Assembly (NCBI GenBank): GCA_026387895.1
Contig: JAPLKT010000022.1
Span: forward strand, 1 to 33,668
Length of the DNA stretch: 33,668 nucleotides
Direction: 5' to 3'
Origin: Gemmatimonadota bacterium
GTDB lineage: Bacteria; Gemmatimonadota; Gemmatimonadetes; Gemmatimonadales; Gemmatimonadaceae
Shown here: in pieces, positions 21,675 through 33,228 of the stretch
Layout of the letters: every line of letters starts with the position of its first letter
Numbering within the stretch: the first letter of the stretch is position 1
Notes under the pieces: model-generated
Database searches by the model: none
The model's input: the letters and a program-made list of their open reading frames with translations, nothing else
What the model was told of the DNA's origin: nothing
Program-made: the position numbers and the translations under genes

Positions 21675-22050
21675 AGCGGACTGGTGCCAACCCCAGCGAA
21701 CGCAGCATCGGGTGCTAGGTCGCAGTCCAATCGACCGCTCAGCGCTCGTTGGGGGTGAGGTCGGGCTGGCAAAGGACGCGCGGAAGGACTTCCGCGCCGG
21801 AAAAGTTAGATGAAAGCTTGTGATGTTACGCGTGGGCCGCAAACCTCAGTGCCAATACGTGGCTCCAGGATATTGACATACCTAGGAACGACCGTCGACT
21901 CACTAACCGGATGTAACACGCCGGCCGCCAATCAATGCTTGGGGCACCGCAATGCAATGGTACGCCTTCGGCGTCGATTCCCCTTGCCTGCAAAACGGAT
22001 GCTGGCCAAGTTTACGCGGTCGTGCGCTACCACCCATCGATGCCCACCGG
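21675..22050. other. Intergenic region upstream of the SARP-type regulator
   Basis: About 375 bases without a convincing gene. A perfect TTGACA is at 21873-21878, but the bases 17 downstream (21896-21901, CGACTC) do not resemble a -10 box. The regulator's frame is open from an ATG at 21952, so its true start may lie at either end of 21952-22051. No repeats or RNA genes were seen. Confidence 0.6.
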
Positions 22051-25000
22051 ATGGAACACTCAGCACACTCTTCTGCCACTCAGGAAAAGACGATATCGGA
22101 TGTGCGCGTTATCGGTCTTGGGGCTGCCGAAATATGGCTCGGCAGCCGTGTTGTTACGCCAACCACCGATGTGCTCTATGCCGTACTGTTGTTTTTAGCG
22201 GTACAGCACCCGAGACCAGTTGCAGCCAACGCGTTGCTTCAAATGATTTGGCCAAACATCGATGAGCCGCGACGGCGTCACTCGCTTCGCCAACTCGTCT
22301 ATCGAATTCGCCGTTTCGGCTGCTCGGTTTCAACAAATAACGGTGCACTGAAGTTGGACGTGGACTCGGTGTCGGCAGACTTTGATCGCACGGTCTCCGC
22401 TGAATGGGTTGCGCAAGCATCACTCGCGGAAGTCCGAGACGCCACCACGCTGTTTGCCGAGTTTTCTCCGAGCTTCTCGCAACCATTCGCCGAGTGGCTC
22501 GACAGATTACGCGCCGATGTGGGGACTCGGGCTCGCGACGCGTGTCTCGAGCGAATCCGAGTAACTAAGTCCCACGGTCGATGGTCTGACGTCGACGAAT
22601 GGGCACGTCTTTGCCTGCAATCTGACTCATTAAATGAAGAGGCGACTTTAGCGCGAGCCGAAGCGATGGCGATGCGCGGTTCCAAGTTAGAAGCCCAATC
22701 GCTTCTCACTGAGTATGTATTGGAACTGGGGGACTCGGCATCGACGGTCGGGCTTCCTGCGCGCGTGCTTCGCAGGAGAATTTCCGAACTCGCTGAGACT
22801 CGGCGATTTTTCGTTCCCGACGGCTCATTCGGTAGAGAGCGCGAGTTTGCGCTTCTCACGGACTCCGCATCCATAGCTAGGCAAGGACGATCAATAGCCA
22901 CATTTGTACACGGCCCGGCCGGCACAGGGAAAACACTACTACTAGATCAATTCGCCACTTTTTGCGAAACGCAGGGCTTTTCTCTGATTCGCGTGCAAGT
23001 TGTTCGCGATTTACATGGAACTTCGGGCTCGCTCCTCACAGACGTGCTGCGAGCGGCACTCCAACTACCTGGGGCACTAGCATGCTCCCCAGAACACCTG
23101 GCCTTTCTACGCGAGTTCGCGGAAAACTCGACAACCGCGCCCCTGTTTTGGCCCAGCAAAGCAACATCCCAGAACATCGACTCGATCGGTACAGCCGTCA
23201 GCTCTCTCTTCCGTGAACTCGAGGTCGAAAAGCCCCTAGCACTCTTTCTGGATGACTATCTAGCCTCGGACACAACGTCGCTAACAATATTGAGTTGCGC
23301 GACAGCTGCGATGAAGGGATGCCGTTTGTTGCTTGTGGTCTCAGCGCGGGAGCATCCGCCACAGTCTCCCTTGGTCAGTGCAGCTCAAGAGATTCGAGAT
23401 TTGCACTTAGGAACCCTCTCGCGAGACGCCACAATGCGCTTCGCTGTATCTGCTGCCGCAATCGGTGGAACAAGCCTAAGCGAGGAGGACCTCGAGAACA
23501 TATATACAGCAACAGGAGGACATCCTCTATTTGTTCGCGAAATCGCCACGTCTCGTTCTAACACATATAACACCTACAGCCTTCCTCAAAACCTCGAGGC
23601 CATCATCTGGGCCAGCGTTCGCGATCTAAGTTCCTCAGCCCAGCGCCTCCTCAGCTTGCTTTCGATACTCCATGGCAGCGAGGGCAGTGAAGACTCGCTG
23701 TCGCTTACTGACCTGCAAGAACTGGACTGCGAAATCATCTTGATAGAGCTGACCACGGCAGGTCTCCTCCCGACGGTGGGTTCTTCGCGCTTAAAACCCT
23801 GTCTCGCCGTCAGCTTGGCTGTGCGAGCTCGACTCTCGCCGACGATTTTATCCTCTCTTCACTTTCGTGCTGGATGCGTCCTCGAACGAAAGGCTATTCT
23901 ATCTGACAGCGCGGCATATGCTCGGGAGGCGGCACGCCACCTAGGCCTCGCTCGAGAGGGGGAAAGAGCAGCACGGTTGCTTAGTGAGGCTGCTGCACGT
24001 CAAATCGCACTGGGAAATAGCTCTGAGGCAGCTGATCTGCTGCAGGTCGCTGCGCGCGCGGCTAATAGTGAGTTGACACGACTTCAGTGCAAGCTGGCTG
24101 AACTGGGCGCAAGAAGGCTTACGGGTGATTGGGAGGGCGTAGCAGCTCTTTGCTCTGAACTTTCGCGCAACACTCGCAAACGAGTTTTAAAATCGACGGA
24201 TCTTCTGGATGTATACCTTACGTCACTCGAGGCCGACATGCATCGAGGCAGCAGTCCCCGGTTGACTATGGCGCGCAGTGCCGCTGTGATGACCGAGAAA
24301 CAGTATCCGCATGACCGCAGGGAGCGTGCAGCAAATCTTACCGCCACGCTCGCTTCCAATCTGGGGGACTGCCAGCACTTGTCTGCTGCCTTAGATGCGC
24401 TCCCGCTCGAGAGCGCCACCGAAAGTCGAGACTCCTTCGACCGGCAACTTGTACACATCATCGCCGAACACGACCTCGGAAGCCTCGAAAACGCGAAGAC
24501 ACAAGCACAGCGACTGGTGTCGCGAGCGAGAATCACAGGATCTGTTGAGGTCCTAGTACGGGCGCTGTTGGCGGCCAGCGTTCCAGAGAGATCGAGCGGT
24601 GACCTCGATACGACTGTCGCTTTGTTGAGGGAAGCACACGCTGAATGTGAATCGCATCAACTCTGGTCTTTGGCTACGCGGTGTGCCGATACTCTCAGCG
24701 GCGTGCTGTTCGATTCTGAGGACTTGGAGCAAGCGCAGAAATGGCAGGAGGTTGCTGACTCCACCTGCAGGTCGGTGTTTTCGCACTGGACGAATCGCAC
24801 AGTTGTTCACCAGCGGCTTCGCCTGAGCGCCCACAGCCAAGCACATGCCACATTCGACCACGCCTTCCTGAGCGACTACACGCAAGTTGTGTTCAGAGAC
24901 GAACTCGCGGTGCGGCGGAATCACGACCTTGCCGCACTAGCCATGCTTGCGCTGCGCCACCAAGATACCGCGGCTCTTAAGCCGATAGTTGATGAGCTGC

Positions 25001-25251
25001 TAGCTGGCATCGTTCAGTGTCGCGGTCAGCGACGGGTCGACTACATCCTAGCAGCGGCCATTGCTGGTGCAAGGGCTCTAGGGCAAGAGTTTAAATCGCG
25101 CCGAGCAGCCGTCGCCTTTTGTGATGAATATCGAAACTCTCCGTTTCCACCGCTTTGGTACCTAGAAGCAACTCTTTCGGAGGACAGTCAGCGCCTCTTT
25201 GGTTTCTCTCAATCGCCTCCCGCGTGCCAAAAAGTGCGGTCCACACCCTAA
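22051..25251 (+). CDS. Large SARP-type transcriptional regulator with ATPase and helical-repeat domains
   Basis: About 1066 residues from ATG 22051. An ATG at 21952 is possible, but the extra 33 residues are Cys-rich and unlike the domain. Residues 15-95 form a winged-helix DNA-binding domain (VRVIGLGAAEIWLGSRVV, LLQMIWPNIDEPRRRHSLRQ, LVYRIRRFG), as in AfsR/SARP proteins. Residues 110-240 fit the bacterial activation domain. An ATPase domain follows, with Walker A HGPAGTGKT (near 287-295) and Walker B PLALFLDDYLAS (near 400). The remaining 550 residues are helical and Ala/Leu-rich, suggesting TPR-like repeats. Such proteins sense an unknown signal and activate nearby or distant genes. By eye this gene uses more TTA, ATA, AGA and A/T-ending codons than its neighbours, so it may have been acquired. 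It is transcribed alone. Confidence 0.8.
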   Translation: MEHSAHSSATQEKTISDVRVIGLGAAEIWLGSRVVTPTTDVLYAVLLFLAVQHPRPVAANALLQMIWPNIDEPRRRHSLRQLVYRIRRFGCSVSTNNGALKLDVDSVSADFDRTVSAEWVAQASLAEVRDATTLFAEFSPSFSQPFAEWLDRLRADVGTRARDACLERIRVTKSHGRWSDVDEWARLCLQSDSLNEEATLARAEAMAMRGSKLEAQSLLTEYVLELGDSASTVGLPARVLRRRISELAETRRFFVPDGSFGREREFALLTDSASIARQGRSIATFVHGPAGTGKTLLLDQFATFCETQGFSLIRVQVVRDLHGTSGSLLTDVLRAALQLPGALACSPEHLAFLREFAENSTTAPLFWPSKATSQNIDSIGTAVSSLFRELEVEKPLALFLDDYLASDTTSLTILSCATAAMKGCRLLLVVSAREHPPQSPLVSAAQEIRDLHLGTLSRDATMRFAVSAAAIGGTSLSEEDLENIYTATGGHPLFVREIATSRSNTYNTYSLPQNLEAIIWASVRDLSSSAQRLLSLLSILHGSEGSEDSLSLTDLQELDCEIILIELTTAGLLPTVGSSRLKPCLAVSLAVRARLSPTILSSLHFRAGCVLERKAILSDSAAYAREAARHLGLAREGERAARLLSEAAARQIALGNSSEAADLLQVAARAANSELTRLQCKLAELGARRLTGDWEGVAALCSELSRNTRKRVLKSTDLLDVYLTSLEADMHRGSSPRLTMARSAAVMTEKQYPHDRRERAANLTATLASNLGDCQHLSAALDALPLESATESRDSFDRQLVHIIAEHDLGSLENAKTQAQRLVSRARITGSVEVLVRALLAASVPERSSGDLDTTVALLREAHAECESHQLWSLATRCADTLSGVLFDSEDLEQAQKWQEVADSTCRSVFSHWTNRTVVHQRLRLSAHSQAHATFDHAFLSDYTQVVFRDELAVRRNHDLAALAMLALRHQDTAALKPIVDELLAGIVQCRGQRRVDYILAAAIAGARALGQEFKSRRAAVAFCDEYRNSPFPPLWYLEATLSEDSQRLFGFSQSPPACQKVRSTP

Positions 25252-25359: not shown

Positions 25360-26943
25360 CTATTGGGAAGTCGTGTCGTTGCCCGAGTGACCCATCGGCA
25401 AATGGTACTCCTTCAGCTTGCGGTACAACGTCCGCTCACCAATCGCCAATACCTCGGCCGCCTTACGACGATTCCCGCGACTCTCCCGCAACGCGGCCTC
25501 AATCGCCGCTCGCTCAATCTCGGCCATGGTCATCCCCGGCGTAATGGTCACGGTATTCGCCGACCCCGCCGGAGCGGCCAGTTCAACACCGCCGAGTACC
25601 GGGAACCCTGGGTACATCGTAGAGGCTGGGGCGATCCCCGTGGCGGCAATCGTGGAGAAATGCGCGCGGTCGTCGTCCACCCGCCGGCGCAGCTCCTCCA
25701 CCTGCAACTTGAGCTCCAACAAGCTCCGCACAATAAACTCCAACTCGCGCCCCTCGGCGCGCTCCCCCTCGCGGATCATGGGGCCCACGTGCACCGGCAA
25801 GAACCGGTCGCTCCCCGCACCGCGCAACTGCGACGGAATGTCCTGCACGCCAATCTCGCGCCCCGTGGCCAGCACCACCATCGACTCCACCAAGTTGCGC
25901 AGCTCGCGCACATTGCCCGGCCAGGGGTAGTCCACTAACGCCTGAAGAGCTTCAGGCGAAATCCCACGGAACTCGCGCTCGTGCGTCTGCGTGAACTCCT
26001 GCACAAAGCGGCGCAGTAGCATCACAATGTCGTCGCGACGCTCGCGCAGCGGCGGCAGGTAAATGCGCAGCACATTCAGGCGGTAGTACAGATCGCTGCG
26101 AAAGGTGCCGCGCTCCACCGCGTCGCGCAGGGCGCGGTTGGTGGCGGCCACCACACGCACATCCACCTTGATCGGTGTGGTGCCACCCACGCGGGTCACT
26201 TCGCGCTCTTCCAATACGCGTAAGAGCTTTACTTGGGTGGATTGCGGGATCTCGCCGATCTCGTCTAGAAAGAGCGTACCCCCGTCGGCGAGTTCAAAGC
26301 GGCCAATGCGCCGTTCGGCGGCGCCGGTAAAGGCGCCCTTCTCGTGGCCAAAGAGTTCGCTCTCGAGCAGCGTTTCGGGGAGCGCGCCCACATTCACCGC
26401 AATGAAGGGCTTGGCACGCCGAGGACTCAGGCGGTGGATCGCGCGCGCGACCAGTTCTTTGCCGGTGCCCGATTCCCCTTCGATTAGCACCGTGCTCGAG
26501 ACCGGCGCAATCTGCTCGACTTTCACCAGCACTTCGCGCACCGCTTCGGAGTCGCCGTAGAGCCCAGTTTGTTCGGCCAAGCGGCGGCGCTCGAGCAGTG
26601 CTTTGACGTGCGTGGCGAGTTCGTCGGCACTCACCGGTTTGGTGAGCACGTCGTTGAAGCCTACGCCTTTGAGTCGGGCTTCGAGTTGCGGGTCGCCGAT
26701 GTCGGCCAGCCCCAGGACGGCGGCGCCACTCCAGAGTTGGGCGCGGACTAGGGCGAGCGTTTGTGGGTCGAGCAGGTTCCCCGTGAAGACAATGACATCG
26801 GGGCGGTCGCGGCGGGCTGCGGCACCGATGTCGTCCATTGGGGAGCACATGACCGTACTGATACCGGCCGCCTCAAGCAGTGCGTTGAGGCGGACGGCGG
26901 GTTCGACGTCGGTGAGCGTGATGAGGACGGTCATGTCCGCCAT
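25360..26943 (-). CDS. Sigma-54-dependent transcriptional activator with a degenerate receiver domain
   Basis: From ATG 26943 the protein has 527 residues; the longer open frame back to 27129 lies inside gcvT. Residues 1-120 have a receiver fold, but the phosphoacceptor position after strand 3 reads DVIVFTGN (Thr instead of Asp) and the acidic pair after strand 1 is not kept; the conserved Lys remains in VLTKPVSADEL. The AAA+ domain has GESGTGKE (Walker A), GHEKGAFTGAAERR (the GAFTGA loop that contacts sigma-54), GGTLFLDEIGEIP (Walker B) and YPWPGNVRELRN. A linker with a short coiled coil (ELKLQVEELRRRVDDD) leads to a C-terminal Fis-type helix-turn-helix (AEIERAAIEAALRESRGNRR). It lies 10 bases after gcvT on the same strand, so it is probably cotranscribed with it. 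Confidence 0.9.
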   Translation of the reverse strand: MADMTVLITLTDVEPAVRLNALLEAAGISTVMCSPMDDIGAAARRDRPDVIVFTGNLLDPQTLALVRAQLWSGAAVLGLADIGDPQLEARLKGVGFNDVLTKPVSADELATHVKALLERRRLAEQTGLYGDSEAVREVLVKVEQIAPVSSTVLIEGESGTGKELVARAIHRLSPRRAKPFIAVNVGALPETLLESELFGHEKGAFTGAAERRIGRFELADGGTLFLDEIGEIPQSTQVKLLRVLEEREVTRVGGTTPIKVDVRVVAATNRALRDAVERGTFRSDLYYRLNVLRIYLPPLRERRDDIVMLLRRFVQEFTQTHEREFRGISPEALQALVDYPWPGNVRELRNLVESMVVLATGREIGVQDIPSQLRGAGSDRFLPVHVGPMIREGERAEGRELEFIVRSLLELKLQVEELRRRVDDDRAHFSTIAATGIAPASTMYPGFPVLGGVELAAPAGSANTVTITPGMTMAEIERAAIEAALRESRGNRRKAAEVLAIGERTLYRKLKEYHLPMGHSGNDTTSQ

Positions 26944-26953
26944 CTCGGTGCCT

Positions 26954-28072
26954 TTAGCGATGGGACGCGTTCTTGTAGAACGGGAGTTCGACGATCGTGC
27001 CCGTGAAGCGCTTGCCGCGGATATCGACTTCGAGTGTGTTGCCGGGCTTGGCGTGATCGGTGGGCACATAGCAGGTGCCAATGGCGATCCCGCAACTCGG
27101 CGAGCTCGTGCCACTGCGCACTTCGCCACTCGGGAGTCCGTTCACGAACACCGGATAGCCGTGCCGTGGGAAGGCGCGATCGGCGATCGTGAAGCCCACG
27201 AGTTTCTGCGGGATTCCGGCGGCTTTTTGTGCTTCGAGTGCCGGCTTCCCGACACAGTCACCCTTCTTCATTTTCACGAGCCACTGGAGGTTCGCTTCCA
27301 GCGGGGTGACGGTGTCGTCGATGTCGTTGCCGTAGAGCGCCATCCCCATTTCTAGGCGCAGCGAGTCGCGGCAGCCGAGCCCGGTGGGGGTGACGTTGCC
27401 GTGCTGCATGAGGGCGTTCCAGATGTGCGCGGCGTCGGCGACATCGAAGTAGAGCTCAAAGCCATCTTCGCCCGTGTAGCCTGTGCGCGAGACGACCATG
27501 GGGCCTTTGCCGGCGACCATGCCGTGCTCGAAGTGGTAGTACTTGATCGCGTCGAGGTTGACGTCGGTGAGTGCTTGGAGAATCTCTTGCGCCTTCGGGC
27601 CTTGGAGGGCGAGGAGGGCAATGCGATCGGAGATGTCTTCGAGCGTGGCGTCGAACTTGGCGAGGTGCTGCGAGATGTGGGCGAAGTCTTTGTCTTTGTT
27701 GGACGCGTTGACGACCATCATGAGGTGGTCGGCGGCGCGGTAGACGAGGCAGTCATCTTCGAAAGTGCCGCGGTCGTTGAGGAGTCCGGAGTAGTGCACC
27801 TGTCCGATGGCGAGCGCGGCGACGTTGTTGGTGGTGACGTAGTTGACGAACTCCAGTGCTTGCGGGCCGGTGACGAGGAACTCGCCCATGTGGCTCACGT
27901 CGAACAGGCCGCAGCTGGTGCGCACGGCGTTGTGTTCGGCGGTGATACCGGCGGGGTACTGGACCGGCATTTCGTAGCCGGCGAAGGGGACGATCTTGGC
28001 ACCCAGGGCAACGTGGATGTCGTGGAACGGGGTGCGCTTGAGCGGAGCGGCTGCGGAAACGACGTCGGCCAT
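26954..28072 (-). CDS. gcvT: Glycine cleavage system T protein (aminomethyltransferase)
   Basis: A 372-residue protein of usual length. Family blocks in order are [20 protein letters not shown] (residues 20-39), [20 protein letters not shown] (46-65), [15 protein letters not shown] (near 98-112), [27 protein letters not shown] (near 194-208), [19 protein letters not shown] and FPRHGYPVF. GcvT moves the methylene group from aminomethylated lipoyl-GcvH to tetrahydrofolate and releases ammonia. GcvH and GcvP are not next to it. The upstream gap (28073-28205) is shared with a divergent methyltransferase-like gene and contains a G-rich run. I saw no glycine riboswitch core. Confidence 0.95.
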
Positions 28073-28136
28073 TGGGGCGGGCTCGCTTGTTTTGTGTTTG
28101 GGAGAGCAGGTACCCCCTAAATATGCCAGAGTGGCA

Positions 28137-28163
28137 GGGGTGGGGGTAGGCGGGGGACGGGGG
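28137..28163 (+). other. G-quadruplex-type G-tract cluster between divergent genes
   Basis: Four runs of four to five G (28137-28140, 28142-28146, 28152-28156, 28159-28163) are separated by loops of one, five and two bases. This satisfies the standard intramolecular G-quadruplex pattern on the plus strand. It lies in the 133-base gap between gcvT and the methyltransferase-like gene. Confidence 0.6.
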
Positions 28164-28205
28164 CGGTGTGCATTTCACCCCCTGCGCTGACGGTAGATTC
28201 CCCTT

Positions 28206-28796
28206 ATGCCCCTCCCCGCCCTCGACACCCCCCTGCTCGCCCGACTCGACGCCCTCTGCGAGGCGGGCTGGGACATTTTCGAGCGCTTTGAACTCGAGGT
28301 GCGCGACCACCGCTTTCACCCCTTTGTCGCCGCAGACTACGCGCGCGTGCAACAGGCGCTGATCACCCACCGCGCACCGGGTCTCCGATTCCTCGAATGG
28401 GGCTCCGCGAGCGGCGTTATCACCATCATGGCCGACCTCCTGGGCTACGAGTCGTACGGGATTGAGCTCGACGGCGCCCTAGTCGACACGGCCCGCACCC
28501 TCGCCCAACGCTTCGACTCCGCTGCGACCTTCGTGGAAGGGAGCTTCCTCCCCACGGGCTTCGCCTTCACCCCACAAAAGCACGAGCCCTGGACCTCCAC
28601 CACCGGGAGCGGCGCGTCGGGGTATCTGCAGCTCGGGAAAGCCCTCGACGACTTTGACGTGGTGTTCGGCTACCCCTGGGGCGGCGAACACCAGATGATG
28701 CGCGACCTCATGCGCCGCTACGGCAACCCCGACGCCCTACTCCTGCTGCATGACGTCGACGACGGCGTGCGCGCCTTCCGCGATCGACGCCGTTAG
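28206..28796 (+). CDS. Class I SAM-dependent methyltransferase-like protein
   Basis: A 196-residue protein. Residues 58-72 (LRFLEWGSASGVITI) match the glycine-containing SAM-binding motif I, and YGIELDGALVDTA (near 80-92) supplies the acidic residue after strand 2 expected of Rossmann-fold methyltransferases. Further on, DFDVVFGYPWGGEHQMM (near 146-162) corresponds to the strand-4 region, and DALLLLHDVDDG closes the fold. The substrate is unknown. The ATG at 28206 has no clear Shine-Dalgarno. The radical SAM gene follows about 80 bases later on the same strand, so the two may act together. Confidence 0.7.
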   Translation: MPLPALDTPLLARLDALCEAGWDIFERFELEVRDHRFHPFVAADYARVQQALITHRAPGLRFLEWGSASGVITIMADLLGYESYGIELDGALVDTARTLAQRFDSAATFVEGSFLPTGFAFTPQKHEPWTSTTGSGASGYLQLGKALDDFDVVFGYPWGGEHQMMRDLMRRYGNPDALLLLHDVDDGVRAFRDRRR

Positions 28797-28876
28797 GGGT
28801 CGGAACAGGGACTTCGCTCGGTATCGGTCGAGCTCGGCGTTTGCTGTCCCATCCGCCGGGCCGTACCTTCTCGCTC

Positions 28877-30433
28877 ATGACCCCCACTCGGACGATTCCA
28901 CTCAAACGCGTCCTCATCGTTAACTGCTACGCCGATGAGACCCGTCGTGCCGTCGCGCGGAGGGGGAAAGTCCCCCAGACCCTCGGGCCGATTTTCCTCG
29001 CCGGTGGGTTCCACGCCGCCCATTGGGACATCAAGATTCACAACGAGCACTCCGACGGGCCGCTCGAAGATCCCGAGCTACTCGCTTGGCCCGACCTGCT
29101 GGTGCTCACCGGGCTGATGACCGCGCTCGATCGAATGCGCCACGTCACGGCCTATGCTCGGACGCGGAATCCTAAGGTGTTGGTAGTGGGCGGCGGTCAC
29201 GTGGCGAGGGCGTTGCCAAAACTTTGCGCCAGCTTCATGGACGTGGTATGCCTCGGCGACGTCGAAGAAATCCGGGACGTCGTTTCCACATTGTTCGGTT
29301 CTGCCTACGCCAGCGAGGACATGACCCCTCGCTTCGACCTAGGCTATTACATCGGGCGATTGGTCGGATACGCCGAATCAACCCGGTACTGCAACTTCAA
29401 GTGTTCGTTTTGCACCTTGAGTGCCGAACGGCGAAAGTACGATGTCCAGCCGATTGACTCGCTCCAAAGGCAACTGCGCGCCATCGGTCGAAAACGCATA
29501 CTGAATTTCAACGACAACAACTTTTTCGGCAGCAATCGCGCCAGTTTTCACGAGCGTGTCGCTTGCGCGCGCCAGAGTTGTGAGGCCGGTCAGTTCGGCT
29601 CTTGGGCCGCGCTGCTGACCGGAGATTGCTTTGCCGACCCCAGCAATCTCCCGCTGGTCAAGGCAGCCGGCTGCAGCGCCCTCTTTTCCGGCGTCGAGTC
29701 ATTCGACGTCAACTGGACCGCCAGCCAGAACAAGAAACAGAACGGCCTGCGCGACCAGGTCGGCATGATTCGGGAGTGCCTCGAGAGCGGAGTCGTCTTC
29801 CTCTACGGCTTGATGGTCGACCTGAACACCCGGAGTATCGCCGAGGCGCGGAGGGAACTCGACATGGTCGTCTCCTGCTCCGACATCACCTTGCCATCCT
29901 ACGTCTCCCTGACCATTCCCTTTCCGGGCACCCCCTTCTTCTACGAGAAGCTCGACGAAGGAAGCATCCTTCCCGGCACCCGGATTCGCGACCTCGACTC
30001 TACCACGATTTCGTTGCGTCCCGTCGACTCGCTCTCCGAGGCCGCCGCGTTCGCCAGAGACCTGCAGTCTATGCGAGGATATCGTCGCCGAATCCTCAAA
30101 CACTCGGCCCGCTTCGCCTGGAAGTATCGCCGTCACCTGAACGCGGATCAGATGGTCTTGTCGCTGCTCAACGGGCTCTTTCTCGCGGCGCCGCTCTCGG
30201 GAACCCTTCCCGCTCGCGTCGGCGCCAGAGCGGCGCCCAGAACCCACGTGAGTACCACCGAGCCGCTCGACCTAGTCTACCGCCCAGCGTTTACCGTCGC
30301 CTCCAAGTATCAGCACCTCTTCGAACCGATCTTCCTGACCGACCCGTCCGGTCGGCTGGCCGATGACGTCGCCGAGGATGTTGACGATGCCAGAAAGGCC
30401 CCAGTCAAGATCACTGTCGCACCGAAGCAATAG
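28877..30433 (+). CDS. B12-binding-domain radical SAM protein
   Basis: About 518 residues from ATG 28877; an earlier ATG at 28841 adds 12 residues (LSHPPGRTFSL) that look untypical. The N-terminal 130 residues form a Rossmann-like cobalamin-binding domain (RVLIVNCYADE, LAGGFHAAHWDIKIHN, DLLVLTGLMTALDR, PKVLVVGGGHVA). The radical SAM cluster motif is CNFKCSFC (Cys172, 176, 179), preceded by AESTRYCNF. The barrel continues with FNDNNFFGS, LFSGVESF, and TIPFPGTPFFYEKL. The C-terminus (about 400-518) is an additional helical region. Enzymes of this class perform methylations, ring closures or rearrangements in lipid, tetrapyrrole and natural-product pathways. The substrate is unassigned. A conserved His in the B12 domain (D-x-H-x-x-G) is not evident, so cobalamin may bind base-off without a His ligand, or not at all. 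Confidence 0.85.
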   Translation: MTPTRTIPLKRVLIVNCYADETRRAVARRGKVPQTLGPIFLAGGFHAAHWDIKIHNEHSDGPLEDPELLAWPDLLVLTGLMTALDRMRHVTAYARTRNPKVLVVGGGHVARALPKLCASFMDVVCLGDVEEIRDVVSTLFGSAYASEDMTPRFDLGYYIGRLVGYAESTRYCNFKCSFCTLSAERRKYDVQPIDSLQRQLRAIGRKRILNFNDNNFFGSNRASFHERVACARQSCEAGQFGSWAALLTGDCFADPSNLPLVKAAGCSALFSGVESFDVNWTASQNKKQNGLRDQVGMIRECLESGVVFLYGLMVDLNTRSIAEARRELDMVVSCSDITLPSYVSLTIPFPGTPFFYEKLDEGSILPGTRIRDLDSTTISLRPVDSLSEAAAFARDLQSMRGYRRRILKHSARFAWKYRRHLNADQMVLSLLNGLFLAAPLSGTLPARVGARAAPRTHVSTTEPLDLVYRPAFTVASKYQHLFEPIFLTDPSGRLADDVAEDVDDARKAPVKITVAPKQ

Positions 30434-30489
30434 GCACGCGAGGTCACCGCGCGCTAAATCCCCCCGCGCGCGCTGGTTAGCTTTCACTC

Positions 30490-31887
30490 GTGTTCCGCAC
30501 CCTCCAAATCCTCCTCGCGCTCGCGCCGCTCGTCGTCTCGGTCTTCCGTGATCGACGCCGCTGGCTGTTCTGGGGCCTGCCGCTCAAACGCTCCCCTGAG
30601 TTTCATCGCGTGCGTGCGCGACGCATCGTCTCGCGCATCAGCGCACTGGGCCCGACCTTCGTCAAACTCGCGCAGGTCTTTGCCTCACGCGCGGACCTGA
30701 TCCCCGAACCGTACATCGGCGAACTCGGCACCCTCGTAGACGCGGTGCCCCCGGTCGACGTGCGGCAGATCGAAGCGGTCATCAATCGCTCGTACGACAT
30801 CGCATCGCCCGACGCACTCTTCGAGCAGTTCGATCGCGTGCCGGTCGCCGCAGCCTCGCTCGGACAAGTGCATCGCGCCCGCTACAAAGGACGCGACGTC
30901 GCCGTCAAAGTGCTGCGCCCGGGCATCGAACGCGTCGTCGAACGCGACCTCATCGCCGCACGCCGCATCCTCGGCTGGCTCACAAAGAAGTGGAACAACA
31001 GCCACCTCACCGGGCTCATTGCGGTGGTGGAGGAGTTTCAAGCGCGGATTGGCGAGGAGATGGATTTTCGACTCGAAGCAGAGTTCGCCAAGGAGATCCG
31101 CGGGAACTTCAGCACCAATCGGGATGTGCTCATTCCTGAAGTGGTGCACGAACTCACGCGCCAGCGTGTGATGGTGATGGATTTCATTGTGGGCACACGC
31201 ATCGACAAGCTCGACCCGGGCGTGGCCAACGTGAATCGCTTGGTGGCGACGCTGGTGGAGGTCTACGTGCAGATGATGCTCGTGGACGGTCTCTTCCATG
31301 CCGATCCACACCCCGGCAACCTGATGCTCGCCCCCGACGGCCGACTGGTGCTGCTCGACTTCGGCATGGTGGTGCGCGTGCCGGTGGAGACGCGCCGTAA
31401 ACTCACGCGCACGGTGCTCGCGGCCATCCTGAAGGATCCCGTGGGGACCGCCGAGGGGTTCCGCGAGCTGGGGATTGTGTTGGCCACGACCGGCGACGAT
31501 GTGGCGTTGCGACTCGCTGAGCTGCTGATTGAGAATGCGTTTGGAAAGACCACGGCGCTCGACAGGATTGATGCATTGCTCGCCGACCGGGTCATGAAGA
31601 CGCTGTATGATTTCCCGATTTCATTGCCGCGCGATCTCGTGTACTTCGCGCGGACCGCGGCGCTGATTGAGGGCGTCGGGACCAAGTACGACCCGTATTT
31701 CCAGGCCATTCCGATTGCGAGTCCCGTGGTGCTGCGGATGCGCACCAAGATTCTCCGCTCGGTGGGCGTGGCCGCGCAGCCTACGGTGGAGGAGCTTGCC
31801 GCCGTTGCGGGCTACGCGCTGGGCAAGGCAGCGCGCTGGGTGGTGGACCGGTTTCGCGCCGGACCGATGGCGGGTATCGGGACCTGA
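30490..31887 (+). CDS. UbiB/ABC1 family atypical kinase-like protein
   Basis: A 465-residue protein from GTG 30490. Motifs in order are LGPTFVKLAQVFASRADLIP (53-72), the family signature usually written K-x-G-Q but here K59-L-A-Q62; the Ala-rich loop VAAASLGQVHRA (119-130); Lys140 in VAVKVLRPG; GEEMDFRLEAE (187-197); HADPHPGNL (268-276); and LLDFG (286-290). ABC1/UbiB proteins bind ATP and are needed for quinone and isoprenoid-lipid metabolism; the Ala-rich loop replaces the Gly-rich loop of normal kinases. Hydrophobic residues 5-18 could contact the membrane. It begins about 56 bases after the radical SAM gene, and an imperfect GCGCGC inverted repeat lies between them (30449-30471). Confidence 0.9.
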   Translation: MFRTLQILLALAPLVVSVFRDRRRWLFWGLPLKRSPEFHRVRARRIVSRISALGPTFVKLAQVFASRADLIPEPYIGELGTLVDAVPPVDVRQIEAVINRSYDIASPDALFEQFDRVPVAAASLGQVHRARYKGRDVAVKVLRPGIERVVERDLIAARRILGWLTKKWNNSHLTGLIAVVEEFQARIGEEMDFRLEAEFAKEIRGNFSTNRDVLIPEVVHELTRQRVMVMDFIVGTRIDKLDPGVANVNRLVATLVEVYVQMMLVDGLFHADPHPGNLMLAPDGRLVLLDFGMVVRVPVETRRKLTRTVLAAILKDPVGTAEGFRELGIVLATTGDDVALRLAELLIENAFGKTTALDRIDALLADRVMKTLYDFPISLPRDLVYFARTAALIEGVGTKYDPYFQAIPIASPVVLRMRTKILRSVGVAAQPTVEELAAVAGYALGKAARWVVDRFRAGPMAGIGT

Positions 31888-31939
31888 GCGTATCGTTGAG
31901 GGATCGTTAGGCTCTTACTTCTCTCACGCCGACCTCCTG

Positions 31940-32611
31940 ATGCGCTTTTCGTCCATTCGTCCGTTTGCCGTTGCGCTTGTTGCGCTTGTTGCGCTTGTTG
32001 CGCTGCTGCTCCCCGTTCTTGCACAGGCGCAGGCGACCGCTGCCGCGCCAGCGACCGCGCCCACGGTGATTCCGCCGGCCGCCGAGCAGATTGCGGCCGC
32101 TGTGCTCCCATTGTCGGCTGAGCTCCGTGACGGGGCCACCGTGATGGGCTACAAGACCAAGGACAAGCTCGAGGTCTTGCGCGAGGGGAAGAACGGCATG
32201 ATCTGCTTGGCGCTGTATGTGACGCGCCCTGATTTCCACGTGGCCTGCTACCACAAGGGACTCGAGCCGTTCATGGCGCGCGGTCGTGAGTTGCGTGCGC
32301 AGGGCGTTACCGCGCTCGAGAAGGTCGACTCGGCGCGTTTTGCGGAGATCAAGAGCGGCCAGTTGAAGATGCCAGCGCAGGGCGCGCTGTTCTCGATGAC
32401 CGGCAAGAAGGAGCAGTACGATGCCAAGACCAACAAGGTCACCGGTATCGCGCCGCTTGGCGTGGTGTACGTGCCGTTCGCGACGCCGGAGTCGATCGGC
32501 ATTACTGCGACCCCCGCGATGAGCGGCCCGTTCTTGATGTTCCCCGGGACACCGAAGGCGCACATCATGATCATGGGCAAGACGTCAATGTTGGTGATGT
32601 CACGTTGGTGA
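31940..32611 (+). CDS. Secreted protein of unknown function
   Basis: About 223 residues from ATG 31940; the frame is open further upstream but that part lies inside the UbiB-like gene. The signal peptide is MRFSSIRPFA, a (VAL)n core made by a 9-bp DNA repeat, then LPVLAQAQ. The mature part contains A-rich low-complexity sequence (residues 30-50), then a predicted alpha/beta domain with LPLSAELRDGATVMGYK, LEVLREGKNGMICLALYVT, FHVACYHKGLEPFMARGREL and TPAMSGPFLMFPGTPKAHIM. Two Cys residues (in ICLAL and VACYH) could pair. I do not recognise the family. A strong terminator follows at 32637-32674. Confidence 0.75.
   Translation: MRFSSIRPFAVALVALVALVALLLPVLAQAQATAAAPATAPTVIPPAAEQIAAAVLPLSAELRDGATVMGYKTKDKLEVLREGKNGMICLALYVTRPDFHVACYHKGLEPFMARGRELRAQGVTALEKVDSARFAEIKSGQLKMPAQGALFSMTGKKEQYDAKTNKVTGIAPLGVVYVPFATPESIGITATPAMSGPFLMFPGTPKAHIMIMGKTSMLVMSRW
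31970..32005 (+). repeat. 9-bp tandem repeat inside a signal peptide
   Basis: GTTGCGCTT occurs three times in perfect tandem (31970-31978, 31979-31987, 31988-31996), followed by GTTGCGCTG (31997-32005). It encodes V-A-L four times and makes up the hydrophobic core of the secreted protein's signal peptide. Gain or loss of a unit would lengthen or shorten the core without changing frame. Confidence 0.95.
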
Positions 32612-32627
32612 TGTCACGTTGGTGATG
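32590..32627 (+). repeat. 14-bp direct repeat at the stop codon of the secreted-protein gene
   Basis: GTTGGTGATGTCAC occurs at 32590-32603 and 32604-32617, followed by ten matching bases (32618-32627). The TGA stop (32609-32611) lies in the second copy. Deleting one 14-bp unit would still give the same final residues (L-V-M-S-R-W), so the repeat is neutral for the protein. Confidence 0.9.
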
Positions 32628-32636
32628 AATGCAGAG

Positions 32637-32674
32637 CGGGCGCGACTCTTTGGGAGTCGCGCCCGTTTCTTTTT
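32637..32674 (+). terminator. Intrinsic terminator after the secreted-protein gene
   Basis: CGGGCGCGACTC (32637-32648) pairs with GAGTCGCGCCCG (32654-32665) over a 5-base loop, and TTTCTTTTT follows. It ends the plus-strand transcript just before the convergent bcp gene (stop at 32684). Confidence 0.92.
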
Positions 32675-32683
32675 CGCCGGTGT

Positions 32684-33151
32684 TTAGAGCGACTTGATTG
32701 CGGCTTCGACTTCGGCGGCGTGTCCTTCCGGCGTGACCTTGGAGAAGATCCATTTGATCTTGCCGTCGGCACCGATCACGTAGGTGGTGCGCTCGACGCC
32801 AAAGTACTTACGCCCCCAGAAGAGTTTCTCGACCCAGACTCCGTACTGCTCGGCCACACGATGATCTTTGTCGGCGAGGAGTGTGAAGGGGAGATCGTAC
32901 TTCTTTTTGAAGTTGGCGTGCTTGCGCGCGGTGTCGGGGGAGATGCCGAGGATGACGGCTTTGCTCTTTTTGAAGCGCGGGAAGGCGTCGCGAAACTCGC
33001 AGGCTTCGGTGGTGCAGCCCGGGGTGTCGTCTTTGGGGTAGAAGTACAGGACGACATTCTGACCGCGGAGCGACGTGAGCGAGAGCCGTTCGCCAGTGTC
33101 GGTTTCGAGGTCGAACTCGGGGGCCAAGCGGCCAGGCTTGAGGGGAGTCAT
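32684..33151 (-). CDS. bcp: Thioredoxin-dependent peroxiredoxin, Bcp/PrxQ type
   Basis: A 155-residue protein of normal length for Bcp. The N-terminus GRLAPEFDLETDTGERLSL leads to VVLYFYPKDDTPGCTTEACEFRD, written here as YPKDDTPGCTTEACEF (residues 38-53), with peroxidatic Cys46 and resolving Cys51 five residues apart, as in PrxQ-type enzymes. The conserved helix and strand blocks follow: VILGISPD, KHANFKKKYDLPFTLLADKD, YGVWVEKLFWGRKYFGVERT, then TYVIGADGKI. The enzyme reduces hydrogen peroxide and organic hydroperoxides with thioredoxin in the cytoplasm. It stands alone between two terminators. Confidence 0.95.
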   Translation of the reverse strand: MTPLKPGRLAPEFDLETDTGERLSLTSLRGQNVVLYFYPKDDTPGCTTEACEFRDAFPRFKKSKAVILGISPDTARKHANFKKKYDLPFTLLADKDHRVAEQYGVWVEKLFWGRKYFGVERTTYVIGADGKIKWIFSKVTPEGHAAEVEAAIKSL

Positions 33152-33228
33152 GTGGGAAAGTTAACAAAGTGCCGTGGGCCGTCACTAGGTGCCGATGTTC
33201 AGCAGGGCATCAGATCCGGAGATAGCAG

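Follow-up and report, generated by a model that had tools for sequence, protein, structure and literature searches.

The DNA analyzed here (the window) is a 33,668-nucleotide stretch of DNA from a Gemmatimonadota bacterium, and the locus of interest comprises a short methyltransferase-like gene, a gene for a radical SAM enzyme with a B12-type N-terminal domain, and a gene of the ABC1/UbiB type (Table 1). Both open reading frames named in the original prediction are present on the forward strand. The radical SAM frame extends from 28841 to 30433 if it begins at a TTG codon or from 28877 to 30433 if it begins at an ATG, and the ATG is the likelier start because family members lack a common extension upstream of it. 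With full-length homologues that are 39 to 48% identical in many lineages, this frame lies far beyond what chance would produce.

Table 1. Features of the radical SAM locus, in window coordinates
Feature	Position	Strand	Remarks
Rossmann methyltransferase-like gene	28206-28796	+	196 aa; last codons replaced by the insertion
17-bp sequence at left junction	28776-28792	+	Near-identical copy at 30544-30560 in the UbiB-like gene, with one C/T difference
Inserted segment, 1,652 bp	28783-30434		No counterpart at the same position in sister genome G015
Radical SAM enzyme, B12-type N-terminal domain	28877-30433	+	518 aa from the ATG; alternative TTG start at 28841
CNFKCSFC, the CxxxCxxC radical SAM cluster motif	29390-29413	+	Residues 172-179; conserved in 34/34
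Displaced 3' end of the methyltransferase gene (remnant)	30435-30457	+	Behind the radical SAM gene
ABC1/UbiB-like kinase-fold gene	30490-31887	+	Adjoins the methyltransferase gene in G015 too; outside the radical SAM module

The methyltransferase-like protein (196 aa) has no Pfam match and only weakly resembles the NCBIfam L11 methyltransferase model NF001790 (32.8 bits, against a cut-off of 269). The downstream gene belongs to the general ABC1/UbiB kinase-like group, with a Pfam ABC1 match at 1.9e-63, but falls below the cut-off of the UbiB equivalog TIGR01982 (290.1 of 487.55 bits).

How the radical SAM gene came to lie between these two genes is evident from the genome of a sister species, G015. 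From position 25374 to 33167, the two genomes are 94 to 97% identical at the DNA level, the sole exception being the inserted segment, which consists of essentially the radical SAM gene only; in G015, the UbiB-like gene directly follows the methyltransferase gene, with nothing in between. The methyltransferase-like proteins of the two genomes are 97% identical, ending in FRDRRR in the window and in FRGTREVTAR in G015, and the stretch that encoded the former tail now sits behind the radical SAM gene. Ten aligned methyltransferase homologues from other genomes (G015 among them, and two of the ten identical in the compared stretch) have Y-R-G or F-R-G at the junction in eight cases and Y-R-D or Y-Q-G in the rest, so that the tail in the window looks derived, which favors acquisition by the window lineage over loss from G015. 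The split tail is a stronger argument for gain than this homologue comparison. The radical SAM gene is a horizontally gained single-gene copy; it and the methyltransferase gene are not a true pair, and their adjacency is an accident of insertion. The 17-bp sequence at the left junction and its near-identical direct repeat in the UbiB-like gene (2 matches, versus 0.07 expected) may represent microhomology at the insertion. A repeated mobile element was discounted, as the genome contains a single copy of the insert's left edge, and a phage or defense origin was likewise rejected for the radical SAM protein, with no PHROGs match, no PADLOC match, and no relative in IMG/VR.

These observations bear directly on the original prediction that the methyltransferase, the radical SAM enzyme, and the UbiB-like protein form one pathway for the modification of a quinone or lipid. 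The shared strand and short spacing of the three genes in the window fit such a pathway, but the radical SAM gene is missing at the same place in G015, its insertion changes the end of the methyltransferase gene, and none of 38 further loci of the radical SAM family gave a phmmer match to either of the other two proteins. The neighbors are therefore not conserved, the quinone link has no support from either the G015 synteny or the family neighborhoods, and a common pathway is very improbable. The case illustrates that a tidy three-gene "operon" can arise by chance from a single insertion.

Elsewhere in the window, a gene for a 1,099-aa AAA_16 regulator-like protein (21952-25251) has a G+C content of 0.564 (0.559 at third positions), markedly below that of its surroundings, and homology to G015 ends beside it, at 25374. 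Together, these features suggest that it may be another acquired stretch.

The characterization of the inserted gene's product as a radical SAM protein with a cobalamin-like N-terminal domain holds up. Its Pfam scores fall just under the gathering thresholds for both domains (B12-binding, 31.5 bits against 32.1; Radical_SAM, 26.1 bits against 29.5), and CxxxCxxC, the defining motif of the superfamily, is present in all 34 aligned family members. An AlphaFold2 model based on 28 sequences (pLDDT 86, pTM 0.87) has the predicted radical SAM barrel, in that radical SAM structures occupy the top ranks of a structural search. The nearest fold is that of AprD4 (PDB accession number 6fd2; Z 22.1, rmsd 3.6, 381 aligned, 17% identity), and other matches include CysS (Z 18.9, rmsd 4.8, 394 aligned), MgmA (Z 18.9, rmsd 3.9, 354 aligned), OxsB (Z 18.6, rmsd 4.8, 395 aligned), TsrM (Z 18.2, rmsd 3.9, 390 aligned), and MiaB (Z 17.7). 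The alignments with OxsB, TsrM, and CysS begin no more than 9 residues into the protein and cross its N-terminal domain, as expected for a B12-binding-like domain. The best fold matches of the model are mostly B12-type radical SAM enzymes, which share its architecture but do not name the reaction, and cobalamin binding and methyl transfer by the window protein are putative.

D-x-H-x-x-G, the cobalamin lower-ligand motif, is not found in every class B radical SAM member, and its reported absence from the window protein extends to the whole alignment (0 of 34 members, the window protein included). Only five cysteines (125, 172, 176, 179, and 266) are invariant among the 34, two of them outside CxxxCxxC. 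Conservation spans the full length of the protein, including the C-terminal region, where a helix at about residues 422 to 440 is hydrophobic in many members, though not all.

The homologues constitute a coherent, full-length radical SAM family for which we found no name: membership in a named family was rejected because no NCBIfam model comes near its cut-off, and the parts of the literature available to us contained no description of a radical SAM gene set with a desaturase or patatin. Searching genome contigs with the window protein alone returned no match, and a search with the family alignment recovered 30 loci in named genomes, from Blastocatellia and other Acidobacteriota, Rhizobiales, Roseovarius, Lysobacterales, Desulfocapsa, Leptospirales, a deltaproteobacterial MAG, and a Binataceae MAG. 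Three further genomes of the window's order also carry the family, and ten plasmids of Ensifer, Sinorhizobium, and Microvirga bear homologues with 39 to 44% identity over 93 to 95% of the protein. At E values up to 1e-60, the radical SAM family is present in one genome among the 18 of the genus, three among 179 of the taxonomic family, four among 288 of the order, and four among 395 sampled across the phylum, each count including the window's own genome.

Phylogenetic analysis, with two other B12-type radical SAM frames of locus L034 as the outgroup, places the window protein alone on a long branch, apart from the three proteins of its order, which fits separate acquisitions; the backbone of this tree is poorly resolved. 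Three incomplete or irregular sequences were handled individually: the fused frame of L034 was used in alignment A2 and left out of alignment A3 and the tree, the partial L054 was left out of the alignments and the tree, and the partial L050 was left out of A2 and A3 and kept in the tree. L046, from a contig labeled Binataceae, falls inside a Methylobacteriaceae-like clade and has an alphaproteobacterial neighborhood, reflecting either recent transfer or misbinning.

The window copy could also be a passenger without function in its host, gained by illegitimate recombination and on its way to being lost. In favor of this view, the gene is present in a single one of the 18 genomes of its genus, it arrived with no partner gene, and no promoter-like site was found for it; against this, its frame is intact and it retains every residue that is invariant in the family, and we regard a functionless passenger as improbable.

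Clues to function come from the neighborhoods of other family members, for which we assembled 38 loci (L022-L056 and L061-L063). Desaturases and patatins were sought by phmmer against all 38 and the window, a search that can miss distant members, and Pfam annotation was applied to chosen neighboring genes only. An acyl desaturase gene directly adjoins the radical SAM gene in five loci from three distant lineages, namely, three genomes from the window's order, two of them also in its family (G121, G122, and G283), and the MAGs L032 (Blastocatellia) and L037 (Leptospirales), and in several of these, the start and stop codons touch. Because the five genomes hold only 1, 2, 4, 2, and 9 desaturases, respectively, direct adjacency in three lineages is unlikely to arise by chance; a rough estimate, in which each lineage is represented by a single genome, gene density is set at about one per kilobase, and independence is assumed, is approximately 1e-8. 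Patatin-like phospholipases are encoded at 13 of the 38 loci, close by in six (L028, L032, L034 [in its fused frame], L037, L061, and L062) and 1 to 8 kb away in seven Ensifer and Sinorhizobium loci, which share recent ancestry and therefore count as about one observation. In L031, the radical SAM gene is preceded by a phosphatidylglycerol-lysyltransferase-like gene and followed by one that resembles diacylglycerol kinase. An acyl-CoA ligase and a crotonase adjoin the radical SAM gene in several Blastocatellia loci, although these two families are common and count for little. The fused frame of L034 (226-2109) is a single open frame that encodes most of a radical SAM protein together with a patatin domain, and it may be a real fusion or an assembly chimera.

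No desaturase was detected by phmmer near the other 33 of the 38 loci, among them every locus from Rhizobiales, and the genome of the Desulfocapsa locus (L036) contains no desaturase at all. The window copy has no lipid gene alongside, and a co-acquired desaturase was sought in its genome and not found: the single FA_desaturase gene there belongs to another subfamily and is not matched by phmmer with the linked desaturases. G015 likewise carries one FA_desaturase gene.

Other recurrent neighbors suggest a different kind of role. In 19 of 38 loci (e.g., L022 7874-11989 and L023 7884-11984), the gene immediately before the radical SAM gene, which it often overlaps, encodes a large co-directional AAA/TPR protein; the two such proteins that were checked combine cyclase, AAA_16, and TPR domains, and one resembles a TOMM kinase/cyclase fusion. 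Cyclase/AAA/TPR signaling proteins of this sort are the usual neighbor in Rhizobiales. In 17 of the 38 loci, an Amidohydro_2 protein is also encoded nearby. The enzyme could make a non-lipid small molecule or modify a peptide or signal, with the Rhizobiales copy controlled by the cyclase/AAA/TPR protein and the lipid neighbors being accidental or later recruits, but the cyclase protein is not adjacent in most other lineages and the association with a desaturase appears in three widely separated parts of the tree, and we consider this alternative unlikely, although not negligibly so.

With regard to the Amidohydro_2 genes themselves, the one in Desulfocapsa (L036 6926-8113) adjoins the radical SAM gene, that of a Rhizobiales locus (L022 6017-7702) is near it, and the Rhizobiales proteins are about 560 to 640 aa long, with an N-terminal half of no recognized kind. 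A 375-aa frame downstream of the Ensifer gene in L022 was dismissed as spurious, the family-matching frame at that position being a GH25 gene.

Among characterized radical SAM enzymes, none coincides with the window family. AprD4 is the best fold match, sharing the B12-type N-terminal fold and the radical SAM barrel (barrel sequence match, E 0.0038), but the window protein reaches only 18.7 bits against the AprD4 family model NF033070, whose cut-off is 500. That this nearest fold is a dehydratase, a radical SAM diol dehydratase that acts on aminoglycosides according to the portion of the source available to us (PMC5461906), counts against an acyl-chain substrate. The same two-domain fold is shared with OxsB (the best PDB sequence match, E 2.5e-7), TsrM, TokK, CysS, and MgmA; identities in the structural alignments with these enzymes are, however, 11 to 16%, their substrates are different, and cobalamin binding by the window protein is putative. 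PhpK is the best NCBIfam match and has the same general architecture, but the score of 30.7 bits is far from the TIGR04479 cut-off of 600 for this P-methyltransferase, and the B12 radical SAM hopanoid methylase HpnR, again similar in general architecture, gives 10.8 bits against a TIGR04367 cut-off of 650. Other radical SAM enzymes act on lipid chains. GrsA, one of the archaeal GDGT ring synthases (GrsA/GrsB), acts on a lipid hydrocarbon chain and, as described in the part of the source that we could consult, combines one radical SAM cluster with an N-terminal domain and C-terminal hydrophobic helices (PMC11186832); the window protein would be similar in these respects, which makes GrsA a useful analogue, but the Grs substrate is an archaeal isoprenoid. 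The tetraether synthase Tes and the GMGT synthase Gms are also radical SAM enzymes on lipid chains, but Gms has two auxiliary clusters, according to the same partial source (PMC11186832), and the window family does not have the makings of auxiliary [4Fe-4S] clusters, its two invariant cysteines outside the motif being too few for two further ones.

Taken together, a role in lipids is the best reading for the radical SAM family, since acyl desaturase and patatin-like phospholipase genes adjoin the gene in other lineages. Lipid modification, part of the original prediction, is thus still likely, but by way of these neighbors elsewhere and not through the methyltransferase and UbiB-like genes of the window. 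For 28877-30433 itself, we judge the chances to be about even that this acquired copy belongs to a B12-type radical SAM family that modifies fatty acyl lipids along their hydrocarbon chain; the most likely reaction, if so, would be methylation or C-C bond formation on the acyl chain.

Such a reaction would begin with the cleavage of SAM at the [4Fe-4S] cluster of the CxxxCxxC motif, and the resulting 5'-deoxyadenosyl radical would abstract hydrogen from a carbon of the acyl chain, probably one that is part of a double bond or next to it. The chain would then receive a methyl group from base-off cobalamin or close a C-C bond. The desaturase would supply the double bond beside which the acyl radical forms, and the patatin may trim or recycle the acyl chain; in the window genome, a general desaturase whose gene lies away from this locus would provide the substrate. 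Rhizobiales make unsaturated chains during chain synthesis and would need no desaturase. The B12-type domain allows two possibilities. TsrM, OxsB, and TokK bind cobalamin without a protein ligand, and the window protein may do the same and methylate; alternatively, cobalamin may have been lost, as it has been in AprD4, and the reaction would then more likely be a C-C closure or a redox change. The window genome encodes a B12-dependent methionine synthase, which indicates that the host uses B12.

A broader proposal, which we put forward tentatively and hold to be somewhat doubtful, is that this horizontally roaming family without the B12 lower-ligand motif works with an acyl desaturase and a patatin to build a new membrane lipid whose acyl chain is methyl-branched, ring-bearing, or cross-linked. 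The producers would be Acidobacteriota, members of the window's order, Leptospirales, and possibly Rhizobiales. Bacterial enzymes known to act on the unreactive carbons of membrane lipid chains are few, and there are unexplained soil lipids without genes. The family is a real lead to lipid modification, and the plasmid-borne radical SAM gene in Rhizobiales isolates makes the reading testable; if it is true, a small operon of radical SAM enzyme, desaturase, and patatin would be a direct route to one such lipid.
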